Assembly: GCA_947460235.1 (NCBI GenBank) | Contig: CANHGK010000011.1 | Coordinates: forward strand, 1 to 64,000 | Length of the DNA stretch: 64,000 nt | Reading direction: 5' to 3' | DNA from: Paenibacillaceae bacterium | Lineage (GTDB): Bacteria > Bacillota > Bacilli > Paenibacillales > CANHGK01 | Shown here: positions 4,914 through 43,063 of the stretch, in pieces | How the letters are laid out: every line of letters starts with the position of its first letter | How positions within the stretch are numbered: position 1 is the stretch's first letter | The notes under the pieces: model-generated | What the model was told of the DNA's origin: nothing | What the model saw: only the letters and a program-made list of their open reading frames with translations | The model's database searches: none | Position numbers and translations under genes: made by a program

Positions 4914-5869
4914 GAACAATTGAATTACATGCCAAACAACTTTTCGAAGGTATCGATGGCATATTGCCGACAACGTTAGCGATTGGAGATTTTGATGGCG
5001 TACACTTAGGTCATCAGGAAGTTCTTCGCACAGCAAAAAGGATTGCGGACGAAAATAGTGAACATGCAGCGGTAATGATTTTTCATCCTCACCCACGCGT
5101 CATTTTGGGCATGGATGGCTATGATTACTTACTTACGCCAATTCACCATCGATTGAATTTATTTGCAAAAGCAGGGATGCAGACTACGTATATCGTAGTA
5201 TTTGATCGCGAGTTTTCGGAATGGTCTGCTGAACAATTTGTTTCGGTTGCATTAAAAACATTACAGGTTAAAAATGTCGTTGTTGGTTTTGATTTTCGGT
5301 ATGGCTTTCGCGGTTTAGGAACCGTTGAATCGTTGAAAGAACATACGAATGGTGAAACGAATGTACACATTGTACCTCCTTTTGAACTTGACGGAGAAAA
5401 AGTTAGCAGTAGACGCATTCGCGCATTATTGCAATTTGGAAATGTCAGCGATGCCATGAATTGTCTGGGTAGACCTTTTGCCGTTAGAGGAACTGTTGTA
5501 GCAGGAGATGCACGTGGTAGAACGATTGGTTTTCCGACAGCCAATGTGCTTCCAGTTGAAATGTATGTCGTACCTAAACTTGGCGTTTATGCTGCAACAT
5601 TCAAATTATTGAATCGTGATGGTACCTCCGGCGAATCAATGCAAGCGGTCATGAATGTGGGGATTCGTCCAACATTTGAAGGGACGAATGATGTACGTAT
5701 CGAAGTACACATTATGGATCGACAACTTGATTTGTATGGTTGCCGCGTAGAAGTCGAATGGATTGAATGCATTCGCGAAGAGCAAAAGTTTGACACATTA
5801 GATGATTTAATTATGCAAATTCGGGCAGATGTGCAAAAAGCGAAACAAATTTTTAGTCAAAGATCCTAA
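4910..5869 (+). CDS. ribF: Bifunctional riboflavin kinase / FAD synthetase
   Basis: RibF phosphorylates riboflavin to FMN and adenylates FMN to FAD. The N-terminal nucleotidyltransferase half shows GDFDGVHLGHQEVL (residues ~25-38), FHPHPRVIL and VVGFDFRYGFRGLGT. A KVSSRRIRALL motif marks the end of that domain. The C-terminal riboflavin kinase half has VVAGDARGRTIGFPTAN (Mg-ATP and flavin binding) and MNVGIRPTFEG. Length 319 is standard. Its start overlaps the truB stop as ATGA. The product uses riboflavin made by the rib genes at 35.5-39 kb. Confidence 0.96.
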   Translation: MRTIELHAKQLFEGIDGILPTTLAIGDFDGVHLGHQEVLRTAKRIADENSEHAAVMIFHPHPRVILGMDGYDYLLTPIHHRLNLFAKAGMQTTYIVVFDREFSEWSAEQFVSVALKTLQVKNVVVGFDFRYGFRGLGTVESLKEHTNGETNVHIVPPFELDGEKVSSRRIRALLQFGNVSDAMNCLGRPFAVRGTVVAGDARGRTIGFPTANVLPVEMYVVPKLGVYAATFKLLNRDGTSGESMQAVMNVGIRPTFEGTNDVRIEVHIMDRQLDLYGCRVEVEWIECIREEQKFDTLDDLIMQIRADVQKAKQIFSQRS

Positions 5870-5875
5870 AATCAA

Positions 5876-5905
5876 TTGCATCAGCAATTCGATTTATGAT
5901 AGTAT
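5876..5905 (+). promoter_or_regulatory. Possible sigma-A promoter of rpsO
   Basis: TTGCAT (5876-5881) and TAGTAT (5900-5905) are separated by 18 bases and would start a ~95-base leader in front of rpsO. The leader could hold the S15 autoregulatory site, but I could not fold a convincing copy of it. A short AATTGC/GCAATT hairpin overlaps the -35 element. Confidence 0.4.
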
Positions 5906-6006
5906 TTGAATGTTGAACCGATGCATGGACAATTGCCTTCACCAGCATTGCCTGGGCATTTGGGGATTTCAGCTAATTTGCACATACAGAACAGGAGGTG
6001 AACAAG

Positions 6007-6276
6007 ATGGCAATCACACAAGAACGTAAGAACGCTTTGATCGAGGAGTACCGTGTTCACGAAACGGATACAGGATCTCCAGAAGTTCAAATCGCCATCT
6101 TGACGGAGAACATCAATAACTTGAATGTACATCTTCGTCAACACAAGAAGGATCATCATTCACGCCGTGGTTTGTTGACGATGGTTGGTCAACGCCGCAG
6201 CATGCTGAGTTACCTTAAAAACAAAGATATTACGCGTTACCGCGAAATCATCCAACGTTTGGGTATCCGCCGCTAA
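6007..6276 (+). CDS. rpsO: 30S ribosomal protein S15
   Basis: S15 binds 16S rRNA helices 20-22 and organises the central domain of the small subunit. The sequence [19 protein letters not shown], with [18 protein letters not shown] and the [12 protein letters not shown] segment, is canonical and gives the family length of 89 residues. The ATG at 6007 is chosen because AGGAGGTG (5993-6000) lies 6 bases upstream; a GTG at 5998 sits inside that Shine-Dalgarno. An intrinsic terminator follows, so rpsO may be made both as a short mRNA and, by read-through, with pnp. Confidence 0.98.
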
Positions 6277-6309
6277 TGCATGAATGCCTTATGGTATGAA
6301 ACACAAAAA

Positions 6310-6337
6310 AGCAACCTGGATCAGGTTGCTTTTTTTA
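6310..6337 (+). terminator. Intrinsic terminator after rpsO
   Basis: A perfect 9-bp stem, AGCAACCTG (6310-6318) with CAGGTTGCT (6322-6330), has a 3-base loop and runs into seven T residues. It is strong in shape and directed on the plus strand. Confidence 0.9.
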
Positions 6338-6381
6338 CAATAATAAACACAATACAAATTACAACTTAGGAGTGACTCTGC

Positions 6382-8613
6382 TTGGAAAAGATATATCAAA
6401 TGGATCTTGCAGGACGTCCGCTCGTTCTGAAAACAGGAAAATTAGCGAAACAGGCAAGCGGGTCTGTAATGGTTCAATATGGGGAAACTTCAGTACTTTG
6501 TACGGTAGTTACTTCAAAGGAACCGAAACCGCTTGATTTCTTCCCTTTAACTGTAAATTATGAAGAACGATTATATGCTGCCGGAAAAATTCCTGGCGGT
6601 TTTATTAAACGTGAAGGTCGTCCGAGCGAAAAAGCGATCTTAGCGAGTCGTTTAATTGACCGACCGATTCGACCATTGTTCCCAGAAGGTTTCCGAAATG
6701 ACGTACAAGTAGTAGCAATCGTTATGTCCGTTGATCAAGATGCACCACCGGAAATTGCTGCGATGATTGGTGTTTCAGCAGCACTTAGCATTTCCAATAT
6801 TCCATTTATGGGACCAGTTGCAGGCGTAAACGTTGGTCGCGTGGATGGTCAATTTGTGATCAATCCGACACCTGCTCAAGAATCTAATTCCGACTTATCC
6901 ATCGTCGTTGCAGGTACCAAAGATGCAATTATGATGGTTGAAGCTGGCGCTTTGGAAGTTTCGGAAGAAGATATGCTTGAAGCGATCATGTATGGTCATG
7001 ATGAAATTAAGAAAATTGTCGCTTTCCAAGAAGAGATGGTTGCTGAAGTTGGCACACCAAAAGTGGAAGTGAAATTACATGAAGTTAACGCTGAAGTAAA
7101 TAAAGTTGTCCGTGAATATGCAGAAGTTCGTTTGAAAGCTGCAATTCGCATCGAAGAGAAATTAGAGCGTTACGGTGCGATCGAAGATATCGAGAATGAA
7201 ACCGTTGCTCATTTTGAAATACTATGGACTGAAGCTGGTGAAACGAAAGTTTCCGATAAAGTGAAAGATGCAAAAGAAGTTCTTCACGAAATCGTGAAAG
7301 AAGAAGTTCGCCGTTTGATCACTGAAGAAAAAATTCGACCAGATGGCCGTGCCATCAATGAAATTCGTCCTATTGCATGTGAAGCGCCAATTTTGCCGCG
7401 TACACATGGATCAGGTTTGTTTACACGCGGGCAAACACAAGCGCTCAGCATTTGTACGCTTGGTGCAATGGGTGATGTTCAAGTTCTGGATGGTTTGGAT
7501 CTTGAAGATTCCAAACGTTTTATGCATCACTACAACTTTCCACCGTTTTCGGTTGGAGAGGCTCGTCCGCTTCGTCCTCCAGGTCGTCGTGAAATTGGTC
7601 ATGGTGCGCTTGGTGAACGTGCGCTTTTGGCGGTTATTCCTCCAGTTGAGACGTTCCCATACACGATTCGCCTTGTATCTGAAGTGTTAGAATCCAATGG
7701 TTCTAGCTCACAAGCATCCATTTGCGCGAGCACAATGGCATTAATGGACGCTGGTGTACCGATTATTGCTCCAGTTGCAGGTATCGCAATGGGCTTGATT
7801 AAAACTGGTGAGCATTTCTCCGTTCTATCTGATATTCAAGGTATGGAAGATCACCTTGGTGATATGGACTTTAAAGTGGCTGGTACTGCAAAAGGTGTTA
7901 CAGCCCTCCAAATGGATATTAAAATCACAGGTATTGATCGTGCAATTATGGAACAAGCTTTGTCTCAAGCAAAAGAAGGACGGATGTTTATTCTTGGCAA
8001 AATGCTTGAAGCGATCAGTGAACCACGTGCTGAACTTTCACCTTATGCTCCGAAAATCACTACGATGTATATTAATCCGGATAAAATCCGAGATGTTATC
8101 GGTTCTGGTGGTAAAGTCATCAATAAAATTATTGAAGAAACTGGCGTAAAAATCGACATCGAACAAGACGGTCGTGTTTTCATTTACTCACCTGATTCAA
8201 AGAGTAATGATAAAGCCAAAGCAATTATTGAAGGTATTGTTCGTGATGTTGCGATTGGAGAATTGTATGAAGGCACAGTGAAACGCATCGAGAAATTTGG
8301 TGCATTCGTTGAGATCTTGCCGGGTAAAGAAGGATTAGTTCACGTGTCTCACTTGGCATATGAGCGTGTTGGAAAAGTTGAAGATGTTGTATCCATTGGC
8401 GATCGTATTTCGGTAAAAGTTACTGAGATCGATGCTCAAGGGCGCATCAACCTTTCTCGCAAAGCAACATTGCCAAAACCAGAAGGTTACGTTGAAGAAA
8501 CCGTACCTGCTGGACGTCCGGAGCGCTCTGAACGCGGTGGTGACCGTCCATTCAATCGTGGCGGTGGCGATCGTCCATTTAATCGCGATCGTGGTAGTTC
8601 AAATCGTTCGTAA
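6382..8613 (+). CDS. pnp: Polyribonucleotide nucleotidyltransferase (PNPase)
   Basis: PNPase degrades mRNA from the 3' end by phosphorolysis. The order is RNase PH domain 1 (~1-145), helical linker, RNase PH domain 2 (~315-460, with [15 protein letters not shown] and SNGSSSQAS), KH domain (~555-615, around [12 protein letters not shown]) and S1 domain (~620-690, from [20 protein letters not shown]). The last ~40 residues are Arg/Gly-rich, with two copies of GGDRPFNR-type sequence. Translation starts at TTG, supported by TTAGGAGTGA upstream. Total 743 residues, slightly above the usual ~700 because of the tail. Confidence 0.97.
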
Positions 8614-8627
8614 TATGGCTTACCTAC

Positions 8628-8652
8628 AAAACCATCCTTCGGGGTGGTTTTT
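8628..8652 (+). terminator. Intrinsic terminator after pnp
   Basis: AAACCATCC pairs with GGGTGGTTT across a TTCG tetraloop, with one G-U pair, and leads into a T run. It separates pnp from the next gene. Confidence 0.85.
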
Positions 8653-8678
8653 TATATGGTTTTAAACATATTGCATTG

Positions 8679-8707
8679 TTGCATTACGTAATAATTGATA
8701 TTATGAA
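8679..8707 (+). promoter_or_regulatory. Possible sigma-A promoter for the M16 protease operon
   Basis: TTGCAT (8679-8684) is followed after 17 bases by TATGAA (8702-8707). The -10 match is mediocre; the site is supported mainly by its place right after a terminator. Confidence 0.35.
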
Positions 8708-8752
8708 ATATGTTAACCTAAAAAATCATAACGTTGAAAGCGAGCGATCATA

Positions 8753-10006
8753 TTGAATGTACACAGATTGAGCAATGGAATACGGGTTGTCACGGAACCA
8801 TTGCCGATGTTTCGATCCGTCGCATTGGGAATTTGGGTCAAAACAGGATCCCGGAACGAGACGCTTGAATCCAATGGAATTTCACACATGATTGAACATA
8901 TGCTTTTTAAAGGGACGGAACGTTTTTCGGCTAAGGATATTGCAGATCGTTTTGATGGGATCGGCGGACATGTGAACGCGTTCACTGCAAAAGAATATAC
9001 ATGTTATTACGCTAAGGTACTTGATCAACATACCGAAACTGCAATTGATTTGCTTTCGGATATGTTTTTTCGTTCGTTATTTGCGGTTGAGGAACTTGAG
9101 AAAGAACGGAATGTTATTTTGGAAGAGATCTCTATGTATGAAGACACACCGGATGATGCGGTTCATGATTTGATCTTCCAAGCTGGTTTTGGAAATCACT
9201 CATTAGGGTATCCCATTATCGGAAGTCGGGAAAATGTTCAGCGTTTCCAGTCCGAAGATTTGAAAAAATATATGAATAAATGGTACCGAGCAGATGATTT
9301 AGTAATTTCAATTGCTGGAAAAATTGATAATAAATTATTAGATCTAATCGAAGATTATTTTGGAAAAGTACCATTAAGTGGTACGCCTGATGTAATCAAA
9401 CAGGCTGAAATATCACCGAATCATCTGGTCATCGATAAAAAGACAGAACAGCATCATTTTTGTTTTTCATTACCAGGCATTAAACATAATGATCCGCAAA
9501 TGTTTTCAATGGCGGTATTAACGAATTTACTTGGTGGGGGAATGAGTTCACGTTTATTCCAAGAAGTTCGAGAGAAACGCGGACTAGCGTATTCGGTATA
9601 TTCGTATCATTCTGCGATGATCGATAGTGGTATGTTTACAGTTTATGCAGGAACTGCACCAAAACAATCCGATCAAGTAGCAAAAATAATTATGGATACA
9701 TTAAAAGATGTAGTAATCAATGGCGTAAATGAAACAGAAGTTCATCGTTGCCGGGAGCAAATGAAAGGTAGTTTTATTCTCGGTTTGGAGAGTTCACATA
9801 GCCGCATGAATCGAATTGCAAAAAATGAATTACTCGGTTTGCAACATTTGCAAGTTGACGATGTGCTTGCCAAAATTGATGCAGTTTCCGTACAAACAGT
9901 AAATGACTTAGTACAATCAAAATTTCGGGCACCACTTTCGAGTGCTTGGGTAGGTCATTTTTCGAAACGAAAAGAAGATTGGAAGCGAGGGAATTGGTAT
10001 GAGTAA
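8753..10006 (+). CDS. mlpA: M16 family zinc peptidase (processing-peptidase-like)
   Basis: This is a pitrilysin/insulinase-type zinc endopeptidase like B. subtilis YmxG (MlpA). The inverted zinc motif HMIEH is at residues 45-49, and the third ligand is expected in the glutamates of EKERNVILEEISMYED (~115-130). The second half (~200-400) is the M16C domain with LLGGGMSSRLFQEVREKRGLAYSVYSYH-type sequence. 417 residues is normal for the single-chain bacterial form. It starts at TTG (8753) behind a weak AAAGCGAG site; no better start is visible. The 3' end overlaps dut by 8 bases. The substrate cannot be read from sequence. Confidence 0.92.
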   Translation: MNVHRLSNGIRVVTEPLPMFRSVALGIWVKTGSRNETLESNGISHMIEHMLFKGTERFSAKDIADRFDGIGGHVNAFTAKEYTCYYAKVLDQHTETAIDLLSDMFFRSLFAVEELEKERNVILEEISMYEDTPDDAVHDLIFQAGFGNHSLGYPIIGSRENVQRFQSEDLKKYMNKWYRADDLVISIAGKIDNKLLDLIEDYFGKVPLSGTPDVIKQAEISPNHLVIDKKTEQHHFCFSLPGIKHNDPQMFSMAVLTNLLGGGMSSRLFQEVREKRGLAYSVYSYHSAMIDSGMFTVYAGTAPKQSDQVAKIIMDTLKDVVINGVNETEVHRCREQMKGSFILGLESSHSRMNRIAKNELLGLQHLQVDDVLAKIDAVSVQTVNDLVQSKFRAPLSSAWVGHFSKRKEDWKRGNWYE

Positions 10007-10484
10007 AGCGGCACAAGTATTAATAAAAAGAATTGATGGTTCAGTGAATGTTCCATTACCAACACGGATGTCAACCGGGGCAAGTGGTTATGATCTTCAC
10101 GCTGCAGTATTAGAACCTATAATTTTGGAACCCGGTCAACGAAAGTTGATTCCAACGGGATTTGCATTAGCGATGCCGGATGGACTTGAGGCGCAAATTA
10201 GACCGCGTAGTGGTCTTGCAGTAAAACATGGAATTACATGCTTGAATACACCTGGGACCATCGACGCTGACTACAGAGGCGAAGTGAAGGTACTGTTAAT
10301 TAACTTAGGGAATGAACCATTTACAGTCAAATGCGGCGAGAGAATTGCTCAAATGGTCTTCCAAGTCGTTCCAAATATTGATTTAATAGAAACAAATTCA
10401 CTCGATGATACAGAAAGGGGCGCCGGAGGTTTTGGACATACTGGTGTTACTTCGATTGCCATAGAACAAGTTGGTCACTCATGA
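9999..10484 (+). CDS. dut: dUTP diphosphatase
   Basis: Trimeric dUTPase hydrolyses dUTP to dUMP and pyrophosphate, keeping uracil out of DNA and feeding dTMP synthesis. All five motifs are present: GASGYDLHA (1), RPRSGLAV (2), GTIDADYRGEVKVLL (3), GERIAQMVF (4) and ERGAGGFGHTG (5). Length 161 is slightly above the ~145-150 norm because of a short tail after motif 5. It overlaps the protease gene upstream by 8 bases and the membrane protein gene downstream by 4 bases. Confidence 0.96.
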   Translation: MSKAAQVLIKRIDGSVNVPLPTRMSTGASGYDLHAAVLEPIILEPGQRKLIPTGFALAMPDGLEAQIRPRSGLAVKHGITCLNTPGTIDADYRGEVKVLLINLGNEPFTVKCGERIAQMVFQVVPNIDLIETNSLDDTERGAGGFGHTGVTSIAIEQVGHS

Positions 10485-11200
10485 ATGAACGAGAACCGAA
10501 CATAAATTTGCGTTCTAATCGGATTTGGGAAATTGATTTACTGAGAGGAATCGCTATTGTTCTCATGGTGTTGTTTCATATCATGTTTGATTTACACGAA
10601 TTCAGTGGATATTTAATTTCATATCATGATGGATGGATTTATTGGGTAGGTAAAATTGCAGTAATATTGTTTATGCTCGTCTCAGGAATTAGTCATTGTT
10701 TTACACGCAGTGATTTGAAGCGCGGATTTGTTTTGCTTAGTTATGCGTTATTGGTAACCGTTTGTTCTTTTTTGTTTGATGTTAACATGCTAATTGTATT
10801 TGGCATCTTACATTTTTTTGCGTTCTGTATTTTGACAACTCCGCTTTGGAGACGCATTTCAACAATGAGCTTATCAATTTTAATTTTAATCGCATGGTCA
10901 AGTATGTATTGGATACATCTAATCCCTGTTTCAACGAATTGGTTTGCATGGGCTGGCTTTTATACTGATTCATTTACTTCTGGTGATTATTACCCAGTAC
11001 TACCTTGGATCGGTTGGTATTGGTTGGGTATGGTGATAGGTAGACATTTTTATCGCAAAAAACAAAGTTTAATTCCAATGAAACTTATTTTTCTTAGTCG
11101 TGAGAACGTATTACAGTGGATTGGAAAACATTCGATTTGGATCTATTTAATTCATCAACCCATAATAGTCGGTGTTTTAACACTCTTGAATTCAAAATAA
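10481..11200 (+). CDS. DUF1624 / HGSNAT-like membrane protein
   Basis: The protein has 239 residues and about seven hydrophobic segments. The N-terminal signature RIWEIDLLRGIAIVLMVLFH matches the DUF1624 family, related to the catalytic domain of heparan-alpha-glucosaminide N-acetyltransferase. The conserved Asp (EIDLLRG), His (LFHIMFDLH) and the HQP motif near the C terminus (YLIHQPIIV) are visible. Such proteins are thought to be acyltransferases acting at the membrane; substrate and role here are unknown. It starts inside the dut stop (ATGA), so it is translated with dut. Confidence 0.75.
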   Translation: MNEREPNINLRSNRIWEIDLLRGIAIVLMVLFHIMFDLHEFSGYLISYHDGWIYWVGKIAVILFMLVSGISHCFTRSDLKRGFVLLSYALLVTVCSFLFDVNMLIVFGILHFFAFCILTTPLWRRISTMSLSILILIAWSSMYWIHLIPVSTNWFAWAGFYTDSFTSGDYYPVLPWIGWYWLGMVIGRHFYRKKQSLIPMKLIFLSRENVLQWIGKHSIWIYLIHQPIIVGVLTLLNSK

Positions 11201-11225
11201 ACTAAATCATTGGATTTTACGCTAT

Positions 11226-11263
11226 AAAAACTAACAAAATTAGTTATTTTGTTAGTTTTTTAT
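11226..11263 (+). terminator. Intrinsic terminator closing the mlpA-dut operon
   Basis: A 15-bp perfect stem, AAAAACTAACAAAAT (11226-11240) with ATTTTGTTAGTTTTT (11246-11260), has loop TAGTT and ends in T residues. Confidence 0.9.
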
Positions 11264-11337
11264 ATTTTAAATTGTTAAAAATAAACGCTATATGTCTTGT
11301 GCAATTATTCCGATAATTCTTAAAGGTGGTGATTTAC

Positions 11338-13266
11338 ATGGAAATTATTCGTGAAGGTTCAAATGCGCAAGAAGTGTTACAGATGGTGCTTTTAGAACAA
11401 GGTTGGTCGAAAGATCAAGTCGAAGTTACCATAATTCAAGAAGAAAAAGGCTCTTGGTTTCGTAAATCAAAACTTAAATTGAAAATTGTATATATTAAAA
11501 AGGATGACTCAACGAGACAACAGGTAGATCCAGAATGGTCGAATTCGGAGTGTAAAGATTGGATTTTCTTTATGAATCATCGATTGTATGTACTTCCAAC
11601 GTTCGATGTAAATTCTATTATCATTCACCCTACATCTTCAAGTCGATTGATGGTTGGTAATCGACCGGTGATCATCCCTGAATTATGGATCGAAGATCGA
11701 ACGGTATTTCGGTGGGAAAAACCAGCTTTGGAAGATCAACTCGATATCATTATTTCTCCGGATCAAATGATTGCAAAAATTCAATTTAAACAAGGAATGG
11801 GATTTGAATTATTTCCATATGCAAAATTCATTAAAAATGAGTTGCATGTTTTTTTTGAAGAGCGTTTTTTGTTTGATGAATCTTGGACTGTTGAAGAATT
11901 CAAAAGAATTTTAATAAAAAATGGGATCAAAAGCATTGTTGAAGAAACAAAAATCAAACAATTTATTGAGAATTCTACAGATTGGAATACCAACTGCGTG
12001 GTTGCGCTTGGAAGCCCAATGATACCTGGGATTTCAACGTCATTTGAATTAATTTCAAAACCAGAAATAATACCTAAAGTTTCAAATACAGAATCAACAC
12101 AAACAATCAATTATTACGGATTCTCTTCGATTCATACGGTGAAAGTTGGACAACCATTGTTGAAATTGATAACGAGAACATTAGGTGTTAGCGGTATTGA
12201 TGTATTTGGGCAAGAAATTCCAGCAACGGACGGCATTGAATATGAAGTTATTTTAGGTGAAAGTGTAAAATTATTGGACGACAAAGAGACTGTTGTATCG
12301 TGTCTCGATGGAATATTGAATGTTTCATTTCCGAATGTCTCTGTTTCGCCGATGTATGTAGTGAATGGCGATGTCGATCTTAAATCTGGCAGTATTCAGT
12401 TTAAGGGTAGTGTGATGGTGAACGGGAATGTCCGTGAAAATATGAAGATAGAAGCGACCGATCATGTAATCATCACAGGTACAGTTTCTGAAGCAACAAT
12501 AATTGCTGGATTGAATATTGAATTGCGCGGGAATGTTGTGATGAGTAAAGTGATTGCCGGGTATCCACATTACGGTAGATTATTTCATTTGTATTGGGCA
12601 AGACAAATGATCGAGCAATTAATTCAATTGATTTCCGAACGTGGAATTCATCACAATAAAACCGTAATTGAACATAGACATCTATTTGTGAAGCGTTGGT
12701 CTTTGGAAATTCAATCGGATGACTTCAAATCATTTAAGTCTCCTTGGATTGAACGAACGTTGCGGTGGATGAACGTTGCTCAGCAAGCGTGTTTAGGACA
12801 AATAAGTGGGAATACGACGGAAGAGTGGTTAATTGATGAAGGTATAGCCATTGAAGATTTGTTAGTATCGGAAAAAGATATGTTAACAAATATTAACGTA
12901 TATAATTCTCATTTGTCTTCATTATATTCTTCTGGTTCTGTTGAATTTAAAGGAAAAGGTGCATATTTATCGACGATCGTTGCCGGACACGAAATTATTA
13001 ACACAGAAGGTGATGGATTTATACGCGGTGGTAATTTGATTGCTGGTCAAGGTATTAAAGCGAAAGTTGTTGGAAGTCCAGCGGGTGTACATACAAATTG
13101 TATTGTATTGTCGAAATATGGAACATTGGATTTTGAACAAATTAATCCCGGTTTAAATACAACGCTAGGCACACATCGCAAATCTTTTACAGATAAATTA
13201 ATGTTTTGTCGAATCGCATATCAAGTCTCTTCGAATCAAATTGAATTAAAACCGTTAAAAAAATAA
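11338..13266 (+). CDS. FapA-like DUF342 protein with Jag_N-type head, copy 1
   Basis: The protein has 642 residues. The first ~50 (IIREGSNAQEVLQMVLLEQG, then EEKGSWFRKSKLKLKI) resemble the Jag_N domain of the RNA-binding protein KhpB/Jag. A ~170-residue middle region follows. The DUF342/FapA part starts near residue 221 (ALGSPMIPG), runs through the beta-helical core NGDVDLKSGSIQFKGSV (from ~343), and after a helical insert returns at ~520 with NVYNSHLSSLYSSGSVEFKG. FapA proteins have been linked to flagellar assembly and surface polymers, with no proven activity. ATG 11338 is chosen over the in-frame GTGs at 11326 and 11329 because AAAGGTGGTG is the ribosome site. The next gene is a paralogue. 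Confidence 0.8.
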   Translation: MEIIREGSNAQEVLQMVLLEQGWSKDQVEVTIIQEEKGSWFRKSKLKLKIVYIKKDDSTRQQVDPEWSNSECKDWIFFMNHRLYVLPTFDVNSIIIHPTSSSRLMVGNRPVIIPELWIEDRTVFRWEKPALEDQLDIIISPDQMIAKIQFKQGMGFELFPYAKFIKNELHVFFEERFLFDESWTVEEFKRILIKNGIKSIVEETKIKQFIENSTDWNTNCVVALGSPMIPGISTSFELISKPEIIPKVSNTESTQTINYYGFSSIHTVKVGQPLLKLITRTLGVSGIDVFGQEIPATDGIEYEVILGESVKLLDDKETVVSCLDGILNVSFPNVSVSPMYVVNGDVDLKSGSIQFKGSVMVNGNVRENMKIEATDHVIITGTVSEATIIAGLNIELRGNVVMSKVIAGYPHYGRLFHLYWARQMIEQLIQLISERGIHHNKTVIEHRHLFVKRWSLEIQSDDFKSFKSPWIERTLRWMNVAQQACLGQISGNTTEEWLIDEGIAIEDLLVSEKDMLTNINVYNSHLSSLYSSGSVEFKGKGAYLSTIVAGHEIINTEGDGFIRGGNLIAGQGIKAKVVGSPAGVHTNCIVLSKYGTLDFEQINPGLNTTLGTHRKSFTDKLMFCRIAYQVSSNQIELKPLKK

Positions 13267-13274
13267 TTTTCGAC

Positions 13275-13319
13275 AAAATCCCCCAACTTATTACAATAAA
13301 AGTGGTGGGGGTTTTATTG
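13275..13319 (+). terminator. Intrinsic terminator between the two FapA-like genes
   Basis: AAAATCCCCC (13275-13284) can pair with GGGGGTTTT after a loop of about 20 bases, followed by T-rich sequence. The stem is imperfect near the loop, but GC content and T tail are good. Confidence 0.7.
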
Positions 13320-13346
13320 TTTTGTATTCCTTTTGAATTATACGAA

Positions 13347-13355
13347 TGCTATAAT
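13347..13355 (+). promoter_or_regulatory. Extended -10 promoter of FapA-like copy 2
   Basis: TGCTATAAT is a perfect -10 hexamer with the extended TGn element. No good -35 is seen at 16-18 bases (TTCCTT is the best), which extended -10 promoters tolerate. It starts a leader of about 50 bases. Confidence 0.5.
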
Positions 13356-13410
13356 AAATGTATAAATTTTCTGAATTGTACATGCCTTAACATTTCTGGA
13401 GGTGAGTCCG

Positions 13411-15330
13411 ATGGATCTGATACGTGAAGGAAACACAATGGAAGAAGTTGTACAACTTGTGCTATTAGAAAACGGTTGGACCACGGACGATGTAGATATT
13501 GTGACCATTTCAGAAGAAAAAGGTTCATGGTTTAAAAAGGCAAAGGTCGTAGTTAAATTTATTGAAAAGAAAAAAGAAGAAGAATCGAGTTCAAAAACAG
13601 TTTGGTCATGTGAAGAATGTTCGGAATGGATTTTTTTTATGAATCATAAACTTACGGTTTTGGCAGATTTTCCATATCAATCGATTCTGGTTCATCCGTC
13701 ACCGACCCGAAAAGTTTGGATTGGTAATCGTCCCATTCTAATGCCTGAAATGATGTTAAATGATGGAGCTACAATTCATGAAAAATTGCTAGATTTAGAA
13801 GAATTACTAGATATTCATATCAGTTCTGATTTATTACAAGCGACAGTTTGCTTCCGAAATGATACTGGATATCGCCCCAAACCATACGCTAAATTAATGC
13901 ACAATGTGTTGCATATTTATTTTGAAGAAATACGTATCCCAGTAGATACATGGGATGTCGATCGAATCTTAGGTTTGCTTTTACAAAAAAATATTTTAAT
14001 TGGACATCGACCTGATATGATCAAAAAATGGTTAAAAGATCCGTCTAAGTGGTCTGAAGGTGTTGTTGCTGCAGAAGGCCGCCCTATGTTTCCAGGTAGA
14101 AATACGGAGTTCAAAATGGTTGTAGATTCTTCTAAAAATCAACGAATCGCCTCAACTGGAAGTAAAGAAACGGTTAAACATCATGGTTTTATTGATTTAA
14201 GAACGGTTCATGCAGGTCAAATGATCATGGAAGTATTACCAAGAACATTCGGGGTCGCAGGGACGAATTTAAAAGGTGAAAATATTCCCGCAGTTGATGG
14301 AATCGATGAAAAATTGGCACTTGGTAAAAATATTATTGCACCAGGAGATCAGCGCTATATTTTGGCTACGTGTGATGGTTTAGTTGAATATGTACATCCT
14401 GCAATTTCAGTTACACCATTGTATGTAATTAATGGGGATGTTGATCTCAAAACAGGAAGTATTAAATTTAATGGGTCGGTAATCGTCAAAGGTAACGTTC
14501 GCGAAGGGATGACGGTTGAGGCTGCTGAACACATCCAAGTGATGGGTATCGTTACCGAATCGACATTAATTGCTGGAAAATCGATCGAGGTTCGCGGTAA
14601 TGTTGTGATGAGTACGCTCACATCGGGAATTTCCCAGCAACCTGCAGTGAGAAGATGGTTGTGGATTCGACAAATGAATGATCAAATTATTCAAATCATT
14701 AACGATCGAACGAATCACACGAGTAAAGCGTCGATGGAACAACGCCAACATTTTTTGCTGAAATGGAAAGACGAAGGAAACGCAGAATGGTTTTTAAATC
14801 ATCCGTTTACTTGGGATGATCGGATTAATCGATGGGCACAATTTTGCTATAAAATGTGTAATGGTTATAGTGCTGGTGTTGCGAATGATGAGCAATTAAT
14901 TGAAGAAGGTTTGCAATTGGAATCTTTAATGTATGACCAAATTTATGAAAATTACAACATTAACGTTTACAATTCCCATATGTCCAATCTTTATTCATCT
15001 GGGAATGTCGCATTTGTAGGGAAGGGTTGTTATCTTTCTTTTGTGTGTGCACCACTCGAATTTATTGCAACAGAAGGAGAAGGATATATTCGCGGTGGAC
15101 ATATTTTTGCTGGTATTGGTATAAAGGCAAAAACAATTGGTTCTCCTGCGGGTGCCGCAACACATTGTGTGGTCAGTAATCGTACGGGGAATATTGATAT
15201 TGAACATTTGCATCCAGGTTTGCATGCATCGATTGGCCGGTCACGCAAAATATTTAATGATCAATTTTTACATTGTCGCGTTCATTTTCAATCGCATACA
15301 AAGCAGTTAGAACTTGTATCATCCGAGTGA
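13411..15330 (+). CDS. FapA-like DUF342 protein with Jag_N-type head, copy 2
   Basis: At 639 residues it is collinear with copy 1 along its whole length: head LIREGNTMEEVVQLVLLENG with EEKGSWFKKAKVVVKF; the shared ECSEWIFFMNHKL and GNRPI segments; FapA part from EGRPMFPGRNTEFKM; core NGDVDLKTGSIKFNGSV; and late segment NVYNSHMSNLYSSGNV. This points to tandem duplication followed by clear divergence. ATG 13411 is chosen because GGAGGTG overlaps the earlier GTG at 13402. Function is unknown. Its own terminator-promoter pair upstream suggests separate control from copy 1. Confidence 0.8.
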   Translation: MDLIREGNTMEEVVQLVLLENGWTTDDVDIVTISEEKGSWFKKAKVVVKFIEKKKEEESSSKTVWSCEECSEWIFFMNHKLTVLADFPYQSILVHPSPTRKVWIGNRPILMPEMMLNDGATIHEKLLDLEELLDIHISSDLLQATVCFRNDTGYRPKPYAKLMHNVLHIYFEEIRIPVDTWDVDRILGLLLQKNILIGHRPDMIKKWLKDPSKWSEGVVAAEGRPMFPGRNTEFKMVVDSSKNQRIASTGSKETVKHHGFIDLRTVHAGQMIMEVLPRTFGVAGTNLKGENIPAVDGIDEKLALGKNIIAPGDQRYILATCDGLVEYVHPAISVTPLYVINGDVDLKTGSIKFNGSVIVKGNVREGMTVEAAEHIQVMGIVTESTLIAGKSIEVRGNVVMSTLTSGISQQPAVRRWLWIRQMNDQIIQIINDRTNHTSKASMEQRQHFLLKWKDEGNAEWFLNHPFTWDDRINRWAQFCYKMCNGYSAGVANDEQLIEEGLQLESLMYDQIYENYNINVYNSHMSNLYSSGNVAFVGKGCYLSFVCAPLEFIATEGEGYIRGGHIFAGIGIKAKTIGSPAGAATHCVVSNRTGNIDIEHLHPGLHASIGRSRKIFNDQFLHCRVHFQSHTKQLELVSSE

Positions 15331-15341
15331 TATGGTATACT
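15314..15341 (+). promoter_or_regulatory. Sigma-A promoter for the VIT1-like gene
   Basis: TTGTAT (15314-15319), a 16-base spacer and TATACT (15336-15341), with TG of the extended -10 at 15333. It overlaps the last codons of the FapA-like gene. Confidence 0.6.
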
Positions 15342-15375
15342 CACTTCATAAAAAAGCACTCTTATGGAGGGAATT

Positions 15376-16083
15376 ATGTCGAATAACTTGAAACATGATC
15401 ATATTGAAGAACATTTTGAGGCGCCCGATTTTATCCGTGATGTCGTAATTGGCATGGCAGATGGATTGACGGTGCCTTTTGCATTGGCAGCGGGGTTGTC
15501 TGGGGCAGTTAGTGCGGTTGATACGATTGTGGTTGCTGGGATTGCTGAAATTGCAGCTGGGTCCATCGCAATGGGATTAGGTGGATATCTCGCTGCAAAA
15601 ACAGACAATGAACACTATGATTCTGAATTAAAACGAGAGTACAGAGAAATTGTTGAATTACCTCATTTTGAACGAAAAGAAGTTGAAGATGTACTTAAAC
15701 AATGGGGATTCGAAGAACAATCTTTGCAGCAAGCGGTTGATCATATTTGTTCTGATCCAGATCGCTGGGTTGATTTTATGATGAAATATGAGTTAGGTCT
15801 TGATAAGCCACATCCTTCAAGAGCACGTAATAGTTCATTAACAATTGGAATTTCATACATTGTAGGTGGGTTCATCCCATTACTTCCATATATGTTTATC
15901 GATCAAATTCACTCCGCACTACTTACTTCTGTCGGGGTAACGTTAGTTGCATTATTCGTTTTTGGTTGGGTTAAAGGGAAATTCACTGGTTCATCCTCGT
16001 TCAAAAGCGCTTGGCAAACCTTACTTGTCGGCGGATTGGCAGCTGGAATCGCCTTTGGAATTGCATCAATGATTAGTGGTTAA
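15376..16083 (+). CDS. VIT1/CCC1 family divalent metal transporter
   Basis: This 235-residue membrane protein starts with a polar stretch and then FIRDVVIGMADGLTVPFALAAGLSG, the signature of the CCC1/VIT1 family, whose members export or store Fe2+ and Mn2+. A second conserved transmembrane helix (IAEIAAGSIAMGLGGYLAAKTD) is followed by a cytoplasmic acidic helical domain (~75-150) and three C-terminal helices. ATG 15376 is used because GGAGGG lies 5 bases upstream; an in-frame ATG at 15364 precedes that site. It has its own promoter and terminator. Metal preference cannot be decided from sequence. Confidence 0.85.
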   Translation: MSNNLKHDHIEEHFEAPDFIRDVVIGMADGLTVPFALAAGLSGAVSAVDTIVVAGIAEIAAGSIAMGLGGYLAAKTDNEHYDSELKREYREIVELPHFERKEVEDVLKQWGFEEQSLQQAVDHICSDPDRWVDFMMKYELGLDKPHPSRARNSSLTIGISYIVGGFIPLLPYMFIDQIHSALLTSVGVTLVALFVFGWVKGKFTGSSSFKSAWQTLLVGGLAAGIAFGIASMISG

Positions 16084-16092
16084 AATAGGATT

Positions 16093-16131
16093 AAAAACTG
16101 TTCTGAAATTATTCCGGGAACAGTTTTTTTA
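16093..16131 (+). terminator. Intrinsic terminator after the VIT1-like gene
   Basis: AAAAACTGTTC (16093-16103) pairs with GAACAGTTTTT (16118-16128), with a 14-base loop and a continuing T run. Confidence 0.85.
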
Positions 16132-16142
16132 TTTTGTTTCAC

Positions 16143-16172
16143 TTGCATTGAATCCTAATTATTCGATATAAT
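16143..16172 (+). promoter_or_regulatory. Sigma-A promoter of the pheB-hom-thrCB-pheA-ilvE operon
   Basis: TTGCAT (16143-16148), 18-base spacer, TATAAT (16167-16172). Transcription would begin near 16179, which excludes the upstream ATG at 16171 as a pheB start. The leader is only ~40 bases, with no attenuator or riboswitch visible. Confidence 0.7.
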
Positions 16173-16218
16173 GTCCATTATAGATAGACAACTGCCCATT
16201 CGGGGAGGACGGTTGACA

Positions 16219-16665
16219 ATGGAACAATCCAAAATGGCTTACTATTGGGTACGTGAAGATATTTTACCGGAAGCATTGCAAAAAACGATGCAAGCAAAAC
16301 TAATGTTGCAAACTGGTCAAGTAAAAACGGTGCATGAGGCAGTTGAACTTGTCGGGCTAAGTAGAAGTGCATTTTATAAATATAAAGATGGTGTGTTGTT
16401 ACCTTCAGAATGGCGAAGGGAATGGATGGTGACGATTTCAATGTTACTCATTGATCAAGCAGGGATGTTATCTAAAGTTCTTTCTCTTGTAGCCGAAATC
16501 GGTGGGAATGTATTGACGATCAATCAAACGATTCCGCTCCAAGGGGTAGCAACTGTTTTGTTAACGGTGGACATGTCCAAGCAACAGCAAGCAATTGAAC
16601 AATTAAAACAACGACTTCAACAAGAAGATGGAATTCGTGACGTGCAGTTATTAGGACAAGGTTGA
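16219..16665 (+). CDS. pheB: PheB-like ACT domain regulatory protein
   Basis: Residues ~1-65 contain a helix-turn-helix-like stretch (TVHEAVELVGLSRSAFYKYKDGV), and residues ~75-148 form an ACT domain (SMLLIDQAGMLSKVLSLVAEIGGNVLTINQ). ACT domains bind amino acids. B. subtilis PheB has the same layout and length (~147) and is encoded next to pheA. Here it instead heads an operon in which hom comes next, 15 bases downstream. It likely senses an amino acid and tunes the pathway; whether it binds DNA or an enzyme is not shown. ATG 16219 gives 148 residues; TTG 16213 is an alternative. Confidence 0.85.
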   Translation: MEQSKMAYYWVREDILPEALQKTMQAKLMLQTGQVKTVHEAVELVGLSRSAFYKYKDGVLLPSEWRREWMVTISMLLIDQAGMLSKVLSLVAEIGGNVLTINQTIPLQGVATVLLTVDMSKQQQAIEQLKQRLQQEDGIRDVQLLGQG

Positions 16666-16680
16666 TTCATAGGAGGTTAT

Positions 16681-17970
16681 ATGGTGAAAGCGATTCAGAT
16701 TGGGTTGTTAGGGTTTGGAACAGTAGGTACGGGAGTCGTTAGAATAATTCAAGGTCATCAAGACCATTTGCACCGTCAATCAGGTTCTTCAATTGCTATT
16801 AAATCTATTCTCGTAAAAAATTTAGAAAAGTCACGTGCGGTTGATGTTGGTAATGCTCAATTGACGTTGGACCCATGGTCAATTATTAATGACCCTGAAA
16901 TCAACGTCATTGTTGAAGTGACTGGTGGAGTGAACCCTACAAAAGAATGGATACTTGCTGCAATAAAGAACGGAAAACATGTCGTTACAGCAAATAAGGA
17001 TTTAATGGCAATGCACGGGAATGAATTGCTAGCTGAAGCGGCTCGGAATAAATGTGATATTTACTATGAAGCGAGTGTTGGTGGTGGTATTCCAATTATT
17101 CGTGCATTGATGGATAGTTTCACAAGTGATAAAATAACCAAAATTATGGGTATTGTTAATGGTACAACGAATTATATGCTCACCAAAATGGCTCAAGAAG
17201 GTGCTAGTTATAAAGATGTATTGGCCGAAGCTCAAGCACTTGGGTATGCAGAATCAGATCCAACCGCAGATGTGGACGGTTTGGATGCGGCTCGTAAAAT
17301 GACGATTCTCGCTCGCCTTGGTTTTTTGACAGATGTGGCGCTTGAAGATGTCCGTTCGAAAGGCATTCGTGATGTAACTCAAGAAGAAATGAAGTATGCT
17401 TCCAAATTAGGCTATACGATCAAGTTGGTCGGTATCGCGGAACGTCAAGGCGATAAAATCAATGTCAGCGTTCAACCGACGATGATGAAAAACAGCCATC
17501 CCCTATCTAGTGTAAATGGTGTATTTAATGCAGTTTACGTGTACGGGGAAGCGGTCGGCGAAACGATGTTCTATGGTCCAGGTGCAGGAGAATTACCAAC
17601 GGCGACATCTGTTGTTTCTGACCTTGTTCAAGTTGTTAAAAACTTAAAACTTGGCGTAAATGGACTAACAAGCGATTCACATTATAAAGAAAAAAAGGTA
17701 TTATCGGAAGCGGAGCAATTTAGCAAAACGTTTATCGTATTGCGTGTACATGACCGTGCTGGTGTTCTTGCCCAAATCACGAATTTACTTGCCGGGCATG
17801 AAGTGAGTTTAGAATCAATCATTCAATCTCCGTTGCAAGGCGAACAAGGATCAGAACTTTGTATGATTACACATCGTTCTAGCAAAGCGTCATTGGACGG
17901 GGTATTATCTAAATTAAACGAGATGGAAGTTGTTCGTTCAATTGACAGTGTATACCGAGTCGAAGGATAA
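16681..17970 (+). CDS. hom: Homoserine dehydrogenase
   Basis: It reduces aspartate semialdehyde to homoserine, the branch point for threonine and methionine. The NAD(P)-binding motif GLLGFGTVGTGVV is at residues 8-20. The catalytic domain carries NGKHVVTANKDL, IMGIVNGTTNYML and YAESDPTADVDGLDAARK. The C-terminal ~75 residues are an ACT domain (LRVHDRAGVLAQITNLLAGHE), the usual site of threonine feedback. Total 429 residues is standard for Bacilli. ATG 16681 follows AGGAGGT closely. Confidence 0.97.
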   Translation: MVKAIQIGLLGFGTVGTGVVRIIQGHQDHLHRQSGSSIAIKSILVKNLEKSRAVDVGNAQLTLDPWSIINDPEINVIVEVTGGVNPTKEWILAAIKNGKHVVTANKDLMAMHGNELLAEAARNKCDIYYEASVGGGIPIIRALMDSFTSDKITKIMGIVNGTTNYMLTKMAQEGASYKDVLAEAQALGYAESDPTADVDGLDAARKMTILARLGFLTDVALEDVRSKGIRDVTQEEMKYASKLGYTIKLVGIAERQGDKINVSVQPTMMKNSHPLSSVNGVFNAVYVYGEAVGETMFYGPGAGELPTATSVVSDLVQVVKNLKLGVNGLTSDSHYKEKKVLSEAEQFSKTFIVLRVHDRAGVLAQITNLLAGHEVSLESIIQSPLQGEQGSELCMITHRSSKASLDGVLSKLNEMEVVRSIDSVYRVEG

Positions 17971-18010
17971 TCAATTATAACTATTTAATTACAGAGGGGT
18001 TACTGCGATC

Positions 18011-19090
18011 ATGCGTTATATGGGTTTATTAGAGAAATATAAATCATTTTTGCCAATTAACGAGAACACACCAATGATTACGTTACACGAAGGAAATACA
18101 CCGCTAATTCGTGCAGAGAAATTATCTGAATGCCTTGGTTTGGATATTTATTTAAAGTATGAAGGCTTGAATCCAACGGGTTCATTCAAAGATCGCGGTA
18201 TGGTTATGGCTGTAGCAAAAGCGAAAGAAGATGGAAGCAACACGATTATGTGTGCCTCTACAGGGAATACGTCTGCGGCTGCTGCAGCTTATGCAGCTCG
18301 CGCGGGGTTACATTGTATCGTAATTATTCCAAATAACAATATTGCTTTAGGTAAATTGGCTCAAGCGATTATTTATGGTGCAGATGTCATTGCAATCGAA
18401 GGTAATTTTGACCGGGCATTAGAGATCGTTCGTGAAATTACTGCAAATCAGCCCATTACGCTTGTGAATTCTGTAAATCCATATCGAATTGAAGGACAAA
18501 AAACAGCTTCTTTTGAAGTTATTGAGCAACTTGGTGATGCACCGGACTTCTTAGCAATTCCCGTTGGTAATGCTGGAAACATTACTGCATACTGGAAAGG
18601 TTTTAATGAAGCGTATGCGGCAGGACTTTCTACGCACAAGCCGAAAATGATCGGTTTTGAAGCAGAAGGTGCAATGGCGATTGTAAAAGGTGAACCAATT
18701 GCAAACCCTGAGACAATTGCTACTGCGATTCGCATTGGTAACCCTGCAAGCTGGAAATCTGCAGTAGAAGCACAAGAGCAATCGGGTGGTCAAATTAACT
18801 ACGTTACGGACGATCAAATTTTGGATGCATATCGTCTCCTCGCAGGTACAGAAGGTGTGTTCTGTGAACCGGCATCTGCTGCATCTGTTGCTGGTGTTAT
18901 CAAATTGCATGCAGAAGGATATTTCAAGGGCGGCGAGAAAATCGTATGTGTGTTGACTGGTAACGGCTTAAAAGATCCTACAACAGCAATGAAATCTCTT
19001 AATGTTGAGCCAATGGTTGTTAAGGATACGGAACAAGCGGTGATGGATGCAATTCAGCTATTGAAAGCGAAACGGGAATCAGGTGAATAA
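18011..19090 (+). CDS. thrC: Threonine synthase
   Basis: This PLP enzyme converts O-phosphohomoserine to threonine. The PLP lysine lies in [16 protein letters not shown] (residues ~52-67), followed by the [19 protein letters not shown] segment and a glycine-rich phosphate loop PVGNAGN (~182). Length 359 matches the short Gram-positive form (~350). The start [15 protein letters not shown] is typical. It sits 40 bases after hom and overlaps the thrB ribosome site. Confidence 0.96.
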
Positions 19091-19091
19091 C

Positions 19092-20111
19092 ATGAAGACT
19101 CCGATGGTACGGGTGCGTGTTCCAGCGAGCACTGCAAATTTGGGTCCGGGTTTTGACGCACTCGGGATGGCCCTTTCATTATATGCATGGATCGAAATGG
19201 AAGAGTTACCTGCCGGAGAAAAAACGCATGTCGAATTAATCGGAAGTGAACTTCAGGGTTTACCGGTTGACGAATCAAATTTAATTGTTAAAGTTGCATA
19301 TCAAGTATACGACGCAGCTAATATGCCGCGCGTTCCACTTTGTGTACGTATTTATTCGGAAATTCCGTTAACCCGTGGATTAGGAAGTAGCGCATCTGCG
19401 ATTGTTGGTGGAATGGTAGCTGCAAATGCATTACTTGGTGAACCACTTAGTTTTGATGAAATTTTCAAAATGTCTACTGAGCGGGAAGATCATCCAGACA
19501 ATGTTGGCGCTGCATTATACGGCGGTTTTGTCGTCAATAGTTGGGACGGCGAAGGCCATCAACCGAACTATTTACGATTATCACCAAATGCAAATTTGGC
19601 AGTTATGGTAGCGATTCCACACTTCGAGTTATCGACCGAAAAAGCTAGAGCAGCATTGCCTGCCATGTATTCAAGAAAAGATGCGATTTTTAATTTGAGT
19701 CGTACTGCAATGATTGTAGCGGCGTTGACTCAAGGTCGATTAGAATATTTAGCAGATGCAATGCGAGACCGAATTCATCAACCCTATCGAGCAGCTCTAG
19801 TTCCAGGATTGCAAATGATATTAGATGGTGCTTGTAATCATGGGTCAATCGGTGCTGCACTTAGTGGTGCTGGTCCTACAATTCTATGTTTTGTAGATGA
19901 CCGATCAGGCAAACACGATGAGATTGAAGAATTCGTAGCAACAACATTGCACAATGAAAATATCGAGGCAACAATCATGTGGCTCGAACCGTCATCATTT
20001 GGTGTGGAAGTAGAAATATTTATGGAACCATATATGCCTAGACAGAATACTTTACTTGAATTCGCGCAAGAGCGAAGCGGTTTAGCAGTTGGAGAGGTGC
20101 AACAACAGTGA
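19092..20111 (+). CDS. thrB: Homoserine kinase
   Basis: This GHMP kinase phosphorylates homoserine for ThrC. Motif 1 is VPASTANLGPGFDALGMAL near the N terminus, the ATP loop is LTRGLGSSASAIVGG (~95-110), and motif 3 is GAALSGAGPTILCF (~250). Length 339 is slightly above the usual 300-320, from a C-terminal extension (FMEPYMPRQNTLLEFAQERSG). ATG 19092 is preferred because AGGTGA lies 5 bases before it; an in-frame GTG at 19083 overlaps that site. Its end overlaps pheA by 4 bases. Confidence 0.95.
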   Translation: MKTPMVRVRVPASTANLGPGFDALGMALSLYAWIEMEELPAGEKTHVELIGSELQGLPVDESNLIVKVAYQVYDAANMPRVPLCVRIYSEIPLTRGLGSSASAIVGGMVAANALLGEPLSFDEIFKMSTEREDHPDNVGAALYGGFVVNSWDGEGHQPNYLRLSPNANLAVMVAIPHFELSTEKARAALPAMYSRKDAIFNLSRTAMIVAALTQGRLEYLADAMRDRIHQPYRAALVPGLQMILDGACNHGSIGAALSGAGPTILCFVDDRSGKHDEIEEFVATTLHNENIEATIMWLEPSSFGVEVEIFMEPYMPRQNTLLEFAQERSGLAVGEVQQQ

Positions 20112-20998
20112 CGATGCGAATTTCCTTTTTAGGACCCAAAGGTACGGTTTCCGAAGAATCTGCTCGACATTTCCTTGGAAATCATGGCTTGTCCTTCGTA
20201 CCCTATAAACATTTTCCTGAAGTGTTTGTTGCCGTTGACAAAGGTCAAACGCAATATGGTGTCATTCCGATTGAGAATACAATTGAAGGTTCCGTTAGCA
20301 TGCATTTGGATTGGCTATTGAATGAAACGGAGATGCCGATTCAAGCCGAGTGGGTTTATCCTTCCGTACAAAATTTAATTGGACATGCTGATGATTTTCG
20401 TGATGAACATGGTGCAATTGATTTTTCGAGCATCAAACGGATTTTGTCTCATCCGGTTGCAATTGCTCAGTGTAGACAATTTATGCGTAGCAGTTTCCCA
20501 AATGTTGAATTTGAGCCAGTTTCTAGTACTGCAGAAGGTGTTCGGCTCGTCAAACAGCAACCTGGCGAAGGACTTGTTGCCATTGGTACGAAGTTGGCTG
20601 CACAAACGTATGGACTTGAAATATTGTCTCCGATGATTCATGATCATGAAAATAATTTCACACGATTTATTTTGATTGGCCAAGACTCATTTGTTAGTAC
20701 TCGAACCGATGGAATAGACAAAACGAGTATGATGATTACGTTGCCAGAAGATTTTCCAGGCGCATTACATCAAGTGCTTAGTGCATTTGCGTGGCGCAGA
20801 ATTAATTTGACACGGATCGAATCTCGTCCAACAAAGAAGAAATTGGGTTCGTATTATTTTTATTTAGATGTATTATTATCCATGGATTCGGTTCTATTAC
20901 CGGCAGCGATTCAAGAAATTGAATCACTTGGCGGTACAGTTAGAGTTCTAGGAAGTTATAAGAGTTATCCATATCTGGAAGGGATGAGTGAATCATGA
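20108..20998 (+). CDS. pheA: Prephenate dehydratase
   Basis: It converts prephenate to phenylpyruvate in phenylalanine synthesis. The N-terminal catalytic domain begins MRISFLGPKGTVSEESARHF and contains the NFTRFILIG segment carrying the conserved Thr-Arg-Phe. The C-terminal ACT domain (~205-285) has the phenylalanine-binding signature TRIESRPTKKKLGSYYF. Total 296 residues. GTG 20108 is chosen because GGAGAGGTG lies 8 bases upstream; ATG 20114 is possible. It overlaps thrB upstream and ilvE downstream as four-base stop-start pairs. Confidence 0.95.
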   Translation: MTMRISFLGPKGTVSEESARHFLGNHGLSFVPYKHFPEVFVAVDKGQTQYGVIPIENTIEGSVSMHLDWLLNETEMPIQAEWVYPSVQNLIGHADDFRDEHGAIDFSSIKRILSHPVAIAQCRQFMRSSFPNVEFEPVSSTAEGVRLVKQQPGEGLVAIGTKLAAQTYGLEILSPMIHDHENNFTRFILIGQDSFVSTRTDGIDKTSMMITLPEDFPGALHQVLSAFAWRRINLTRIESRPTKKKLGSYYFYLDVLLSMDSVLLPAAIQEIESLGGTVRVLGSYKSYPYLEGMSES

Positions 20999-21897: not shown

Positions 21898-21913
21898 TGT
21901 ATTACTAAATGGA

Positions 21914-21955: not shown

Positions 21956-21985
21956 AGGTACTTACATAGAATGTGAGGTGTTCAA

Positions 21986-22423: not shown

Positions 22424-22431
22424 TTATTTCG

Positions 22432-22473: not shown

Positions 22474-22491
22474 GATGCGGGGGTACGATCC

Positions 22492-43056: not shown

Positions 43057-43063
43057 ATTTTAA

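Follow-up and report, generated by a model that had tools for sequence, protein, structure and literature searches.

FapA-type solenoid proteins are common, and the literature covered here holds little biochemistry on them. Flagellar-operon FapA, such as that of Vibrio vulnificus, consists of a FapA_N domain followed by a beta-solenoid and is brought to the cell pole by HubP (excerpt of PMC12918733), which fits a scaffold placed by a partner. KhpB, also called EloR or Jag, is described in the available excerpts as an RNA-binding protein and is the best-known carrier of a Jag_N domain, which it combines with KH and R3H, its RNA-binding parts. Further points of comparison are the C-terminal domain of MinC and other short beta-solenoids, and the RsbU/RsbV/RsbW-type modules with their PP2C, STAS and HATPase proteins. 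Here we describe two genes from a 64,000-nucleotide stretch of DNA, called the window throughout, on contig CANHGK010000011.1 (C11) of a Paenibacillaceae bacterium (Bacillota; Bacilli; Paenibacillales), whose 2.72 Mb genome is assembled in 42 contigs and 99.2% complete. The genes, P0001 (gene 1) and P0002 (gene 2), are intact open reading frames in tandem on one strand and encode two duplicates from the Jag_N-FapA_N-FapA family, which is separate from flagellar-operon FapA. The domain identity of these proteins is well supported; their function we infer.

Both proteins belong to the FapA family by Pfam, with scores for FapA (PF03961) of 99.9 and 99.7 bits against a cut-off of 31 and for FapA_N (PF20250) of 95.3 and 82.1 bits against 27. 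Aligned over 637 positions with 2 gaps, they share 41% identity, as befits the tandem paralogues that a first-pass annotation of the window had seen in them. A model of P0002, whose residues are numbered here from position 13402, was computed from a 34-row alignment (predicted local distance difference test, pLDDT, 82.7) and gives the order head, middle region, FapA_N, solenoid (334-408), helical bundle (410-512) and solenoid (520-640), at a predicted template modelling score (pTM) of 0.63 that leaves the arrangement of the domains uncertain. The helices at 410-512 bear out the proposal of a helical insert in the solenoid. Like flagellar-operon FapA, including the canonical copy in the same genome, the window proteins thus carry FapA_N and the beta-solenoid above the Pfam cut-off, but they add a Jag_N head, a middle region and the insert.

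The second solenoid half of the P0002 model superposes on the MinC C-terminal domain with a Z score of 10.4 (2.0 Å over 99 residues), while in Pfam the window proteins stay below the MinC_C cut-off (18.4 and 18.2 of 33.2 bits) and list no MinC N-domain, and are not members of the MinC family. A sequence search of the PDB with P0001 returned no chain at an E-value below 0.18; the 34-row profile matched the Jag structure 3GKU clearly (1.7e-13), MinC weakly (0.0034) and five more entries above 0.08. Several fold matches to the P0002 model were set aside, namely LpxD/GlmU (Z 12-13 with a root-mean-square deviation of about 11 Å), FliS and other four-helix bundles (Z near 10, usual for bundles), and a bL27-like match to residues 217-342, which are part of FapA_N (window about 14050-14427; Z 7.5-7.8, 17-20% identity).

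Assignment of the heads to Jag_N is not supported by Pfam at its cut-off: with PF14804, P0001 and P0002 score 16.6 and 19.1 bits, or 20.6 and 23.9 in a genome-wide search, where 25 is required. Taken literally, this would tell against the Jag_N-type heads of the first-pass annotation, but tests of higher sensitivity reverse that verdict. The third headed paralogue of the genome, P0003, exceeds the cut-off (29.3 bits; 33.8 genome-wide). With a hidden Markov model (HMM) based on KhpB heads from relatives, 18 distinct sequences in all, P0001, P0002 and P0003 reach 8.4, 7.7 and 16.0 bits, scores not attained by any of 300 shuffles per head (maxima 6.2, 6.7 and 8.5), while the remaining headed FapA proteins range between 19 and 51 bits and canonical FapA proteins stay at or below 0.6. 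Profile-profile comparison with KhpB heads gives probabilities of 88.7 for the pair alone, 94.4 for the three heads of this genome and 99.0 for a set of 22 heads, and the 22-head profile matches 3GKU at an E-value of 3e-15; several designed repeat proteins match that profile too, through one short helix motif. A model of the gene 2 head alone (pLDDT 88.2) shows the strand-helix-strand-strand fold of 3GKU, which ranks first in a structural search (probability 0.99, E 0.42, 1.5 Å over 53 columns) and again in a second structural comparison (Z 7.3); E 0.42 or Z 7.3 by itself is middling, and the same structure tops both rankings. The window heads are therefore well supported, by profile and model, as diverged Jag_N domains homologous to KhpB heads. 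In the heads of P0001 to P0003 and of the relatives L118, L119 and L120, one turn is two residues shorter than in most other headed FapA proteins, and the short turn recurs in L123 and L131.

As Jag_N is best known from KhpB, the pair might act as RNA- or nucleic-acid-associated regulators, a link that the first-pass annotation had drawn from the head, alongside one to the cell envelope. We regard this as very improbable, since the domains with which KhpB binds RNA, KH and R3H, were not found in either window protein by Pfam, their place being taken by a solenoid body, so that the proteins fall outside the KhpB/EloR family. The envelope half of the suggestion fares better, as an excerpt of PMC12542702 reports that the Jag domain of KhpB binds a protein, the cell-wall enzyme MpgA. 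In addition, the gene 2 head model shares its fold with the domain by which FlhF binds FliG (excerpt of PMC11236974), at Z 5.4 and 2.2 Å over 47 residues. Since MpgA is a reported ligand of the KhpB Jag domain and the FlhF domain of the same fold binds FliG, the Jag_N head of FapA-like proteins may by analogy be a protein-docking module. When KhpB heads and FlhF N-termini are compared with profiles in both directions, 6 of 10 and 12 of 18 cases score higher than every one of 200 shuffles; the N-terminus of the FlhF encoded at L009:16411-17829 (- strand) resembles KhpB Jag_N heads in profile and fold and may be homologous to them.

The genome holds six FapA-like genes: the window pair, P0003 and copies of 477, 471 and 631 amino acids. 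P0003 (659 amino acids, 34% identity; L008:8824-10803, + strand, contig C7) lies after a glmS-type gene and before a 2349-residue open reading frame. The 477-residue copy is a canonical FapA, encoded after a sigma-70-type, sigD-like gene in a chemotaxis/flagellar operon, as named from the translations, and the 471-residue copy stands alone. The 631-residue protein (L011:6906-8801, + strand, contig C2) has a different head and a bactofilin match below cut-off, lies directly before a release-factor gene and groups with a protein (L111) from another genome of the class. A tree of the core domains, built without the heads from 35 of 76 rows, places 14 canonical rows on one side (support 100/99) and joins the window pair as sisters (99/89), followed by P0003 (99/97) and then by four relatives from the class (100/98); the 76-row tree, from which two fragments had been removed beforehand, concurs. 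The trees thus put the pair in a separate clade rather than with flagellar-operon FapA, and together with the gene neighborhood they rule out canonical flagellar FapA as its identity. They also order the duplication of the pair after its split from P0003, although they do not date it.

The Jag_N-FapA_N-FapA architecture is common in the phylum and not new, and the pair itself is therefore an ordinary member of a known architecture. Across the order, 145 of 149 genomes contain a Jag_N match at E-values up to 0.1. Re-searching 27 of the 149 (the 24 with two or more matches and three others) confirmed, in at least 15 genomes besides our own, a Jag_N domain over the cut-off heading a frame of 683-761 amino acids that is a FapA protein, which brings the total to at least 16 of 149. 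In a phylum sample of 299 genomes, counting by hand gave at least 46 full-length hits of the 34-row profile (beginning no later than position 11 and reaching 600 or beyond; one row has an internal stop), spread over at least 41 genomes, our own included. The length of about 640 residues, which had been taken as odd for FapA, does not stand out either, as 640-760 is usual for the Jag_N-headed class. Proteins of Brevibacillus gelatini, Cohnella pontilimi and Saccharibacillus species share the full architecture at similar length; the window proteins differ from the Jag_N-headed FapA of Bacillota in their more diverged heads with the shorter turn, their tandem duplication and the lack of partner-switch genes nearby.

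To these partner-switch genes we turned in two sets of relatives. The first comprised 15 loci of the order and 20 of the class outside our own genome, 32 of them headed (KhpB-profile score of 15 or more), and a cassette gene was defined as a PP2C, STAS or HATPase-type gene on the same strand within 7 kb of fapA. Such genes occur at 23 of the 32 headed loci (15/15 order, 8/17 class); the headless class loci L117, L122 and L130, tallied separately, have none (0/3). A second set of 32 headed proteins, reduced to 25 by removing 7 repeats of earlier loci, has them at 14 loci; L216, whose frame is broken, and L219, which is headed and has PP2C and HATPase genes, were left out of the counts. Taken together, PP2C phosphatase, STAS and/or HATPase kinase genes lie near 37 of the 57 headed proteins. 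The three kinds occur together at 26 loci (15/32 and 11/25), and the order pp2c-fapA-stas, with PP2C directly before and STAS directly after within 350 bp on the same strand, likewise at 26 (15/32 and 11/25). Pfam identified, in examples, SpoIIE-type PP2C with or without a response-regulator domain, STAS and HATPase_c_2, once fused to HD. Loci of other FapA relatives, used as a control, have no cassette genes (0/17). These are the three protein kinds of RsbU/RsbV/RsbW-type modules, but here the operon also contains a Jag_N-FapA gene, and no SigF/SigD-like gene was found in the 68 loci of relatives, the window or the P0003 locus with a profile that detected both positive controls, was made from two sequences and could miss extracytoplasmic function (ECF) or divergent sigma factors.

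One close relative of the window proteins (L119:6165-11248) has a full cassette of PP2C, HATPase, Jag_N-FapA and STAS in the neighborhood of genes for FlgK, flagellin-N and FliW, and its HATPase has a cysteine-containing N-terminal part. At L072:10600-11568 (+ strand) a second, truncated FapA-like frame of 322 residues follows an intact cassette. No link between FapA and partner switching was found in the open-access literature covered, in which the two were not searched as a pair; joint mentions of FapA with DUF342, or of Jag_N with FapA, were absent from the open-access literature searched, as was DUF342 from the papers in it that best combined partner switching with flagella. A DUF342 gene is listed among those changed in cold-stressed Campylobacter.

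Since more than half of the counted relatives lie near PP2C, STAS or HATPase genes and no SigF/SigD-like gene was found, the family is probably tied to a phosphorylation partner switch, as its output or regulator. Our tentative account, to which we give slightly less than an even chance, is that the window genes encode cytoplasmic protein-docking scaffolds that are ancestrally tied to such a switch and act here without a dedicated cassette. The proteins would most likely be soluble, with the Jag_N head docked to a partner protein at the flagellum or the envelope, a structural and probably dimerizing body formed by the MinC_C-like halves of the solenoid, and a further binding face on the helical insert; in relatives, the cassette would control the scaffold by phosphorylation. 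In a bolder form, which we think rather unlikely as a whole, a partner-switching cassette that is widespread and combines pp2c-fapA-stas with an HATPase kinase would have Jag_N-FapA as its sigma-factor-independent output. STAS switching would free or capture a MinC-like scaffold, whose head, sharing its fold and perhaps its origin with the domain by which FlhF binds FliG, would dock at the base of the flagellum or on the cell-wall machinery, and the window lineage would have cut the scaffold loose and multiplied it. Gene order in the relatives provides the Jag_N-headed class with a testable set of partners (phosphatase, STAS and kinase), and the head leads to a docking hypothesis. Were this true, partner switching would act straight on a scaffold instead of on a sigma factor, and the window pair would be a natural instance of the scaffold without the switch.

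A role in flagellar assembly or placement like that of Vibrio FapA, in which the solenoid would work at the pole or basal body while the head binds a flagellar protein, is an unlikely but appreciable alternative. It could draw on the shared FapA_N and FapA domains, on the recruitment of V. vulnificus FapA by HubP, on the fold in common with FlhF and the shuffle-tested KhpB-FlhF matches, and on the position of L118 and L119, two of the four nearest class relatives, near FlgK, flagellin-N (FlgL-type) and FliW genes and of L132 near FlgK. Against this, no flagellar gene was found among the neighbors read of the pair or of P0003, which agrees with the earlier description of the pair as lying away from flagellar genes (none among 15 open reading frames scanned with Pfam from 4910 to 23546, one of them without a match), and the genome already has its canonical FapA behind the sigD-like gene. 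The Z score for FlhF is also middling, with dodecins scoring higher, and the FlhF profile places most FapA heads, and all window heads, no higher than shuffles.

This last result also counts against the scaffold account, and besides the Jag_N scores below cut-off, the uncertain domain arrangement and the narrow sigma-factor profile, several further observations weigh against it. Neither the 64 kb window nor the surroundings of P0003 contain a PP2C, STAS or HATPase_c_2 cassette gene. Among headed relatives, cassette genes were not found at 20 of 57; in the second set, 9 of the 11 loci without them are Anoxybacillus. The counted loci include close relatives of up to 96% identity, which are not independent, and the 25 extra loci came from a query belonging to the cassette-bearing group, so that the sample is biased toward the cassette. 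Finally, canonical fapA/flhF loci, read with the same profiles and mostly covering the flhF side of the gene, gave 1 hit in 17, at L177, which looks like CheA by sequence.

At the Pfam cut-off, dedicated kinase and phosphatase partners are absent from the whole genome, STAS not having been searched genome-wide. One HATPase_c_2 protein scores over the cut-off and is followed by a SigF-like gene, which makes it SpoIIAB by position, and one SpoIIE-type PP2C does so, in an 812-residue frame. As these are the only such partners, the pair looks like an orphan branch cut off from the partner switch. A sporulation-linked role, in which the copies work with SpoIIAB and SpoIIE as the sole partner-switch proteins over the cut-off, would fit the pairing of relatives with homologous kinase and phosphatase types. 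We consider it quite improbable, because no sporulation gene adjoins the pair among the neighbors scanned up to 23546 and the distribution of Jag_N-FapA over the order would be patchy for a core sporulation protein. The diverged heads and the missing cassette might instead mark decaying orphan paralogues whose function is fading, and L117, a class relative without head or nearby cassette, could be read in the same way; yet three full-length open copies persist in a 2.7 Mb genome, and the many residues invariant in P0001, P0002 and P0003 are spread over the whole length, which makes decay improbable. For the scaffold account, the absence of a dedicated cassette, the three headed copies and their diverged heads suggest that in this genome the proteins either work without a cassette or have adopted other partners such as SpoIIAB or SpoIIE.

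The features of the locus are collected in Table 1. Gene 1 starts at an ATG preceded by AAAGGTGGTGA, a ribosome-binding site that points there. For gene 2 the ORF (open reading frame) caller chose GTG 13402, but ATG 13411 is the likelier start because that GTG sits within the Shine-Dalgarno-like GGAGGTGAG (13398-13406).

Table 1. Positions of the two genes, their domains and the neighboring elements in the window.
Feature	Position	Strand	Basis and remarks
AT-rich hairpin between the HGSNAT-type gene and gene 1	11223..11264	+	z -4.83
Gene 1 (P0001), Jag_N-FapA_N-FapA, 642 aa (amino acids)	11338..13266	+	ORF, Pfam, pairwise alignment
Diverged Jag_N head, gene 1, residues 1-52	11338..11493	+	Pfam below cut-off, KhpB-head HMM, profile-profile
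FapA_N, gene 1, residues 136-329	11743..12324	+	Pfam
FapA beta-solenoid, first half, gene 1	12349..12561	+	Pfam
Helical insert, gene 1	12562..12870	+	limits carried over from gene 2 by alignment, approximate
Solenoid, second half, gene 1	12892..13254	+	limits by alignment, approximate
Terminator-like hairpin with T-rich tail, between genes 1 and 2	13271..13319	+	-14.5 kcal/mol, z -1.42, modest
Extended -10-like motif between the genes, TGCTATAAT	13347..13355	+	frequency at chance
Gene 2 (P0002), Jag_N-FapA_N-FapA, 639 aa from ATG 13411	13411..15330	+	ORF, Pfam, pairwise alignment
Diverged Jag_N head, gene 2, predicted strand-helix-strand-strand	13411..13566	+	same profile tests as gene 1, head-only model
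FapA_N, gene 2, P0002 residues 137-330	13810..14391	+	Pfam
FapA beta-solenoid, first half, gene 2	14416..14625	+	Pfam, model
Helical insert, gene 2, P0002 residues 410-512, predicted helical bundle	14629..14937	+	model
Solenoid, second half, gene 2, predicted fold like MinC C-terminal domain	14959..15321	+	model

Upstream of the pair lie ribF-like, pnp-like, M16 peptidase, dUTPase and HGSNAT-type genes, and downstream, among others, genes for VIT1, an ACT protein, homoserine dehydrogenase, a PALP enzyme, a GHMP kinase and prephenate dehydratase. A terminator and an extended -10 promoter between the genes had been put forward as signs of separate regulation. The hairpin is present and modest (18 of 200 shuffles fold equally well), and was not listed by a terminator consensus scan that took loops of 3-8 only; the motif is present at no more than chance frequency, occurring twice in the window where 3.61 occurrences are expected. 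The intergenic hairpin together with the one before gene 1 suggests that the genes are transcribed separately.

Elsewhere in the window, where Rfam gave zero matches at gathering thresholds, a 532-residue protein that looks secreted and carries Pro-Thr repeats and a tract of GGYGGG repeats (53453-55051, - strand) has no Pfam match at 1e-4 and no NCBIfam match at 0.01. A SpoVB-like flippase (30688-32211, - strand) reaches 189 of 372 bits, far under the NCBIfam cut-off. A sigma-54 (RpoN) gene at 43044-44531 (+ strand) has all three Pfam domains present.

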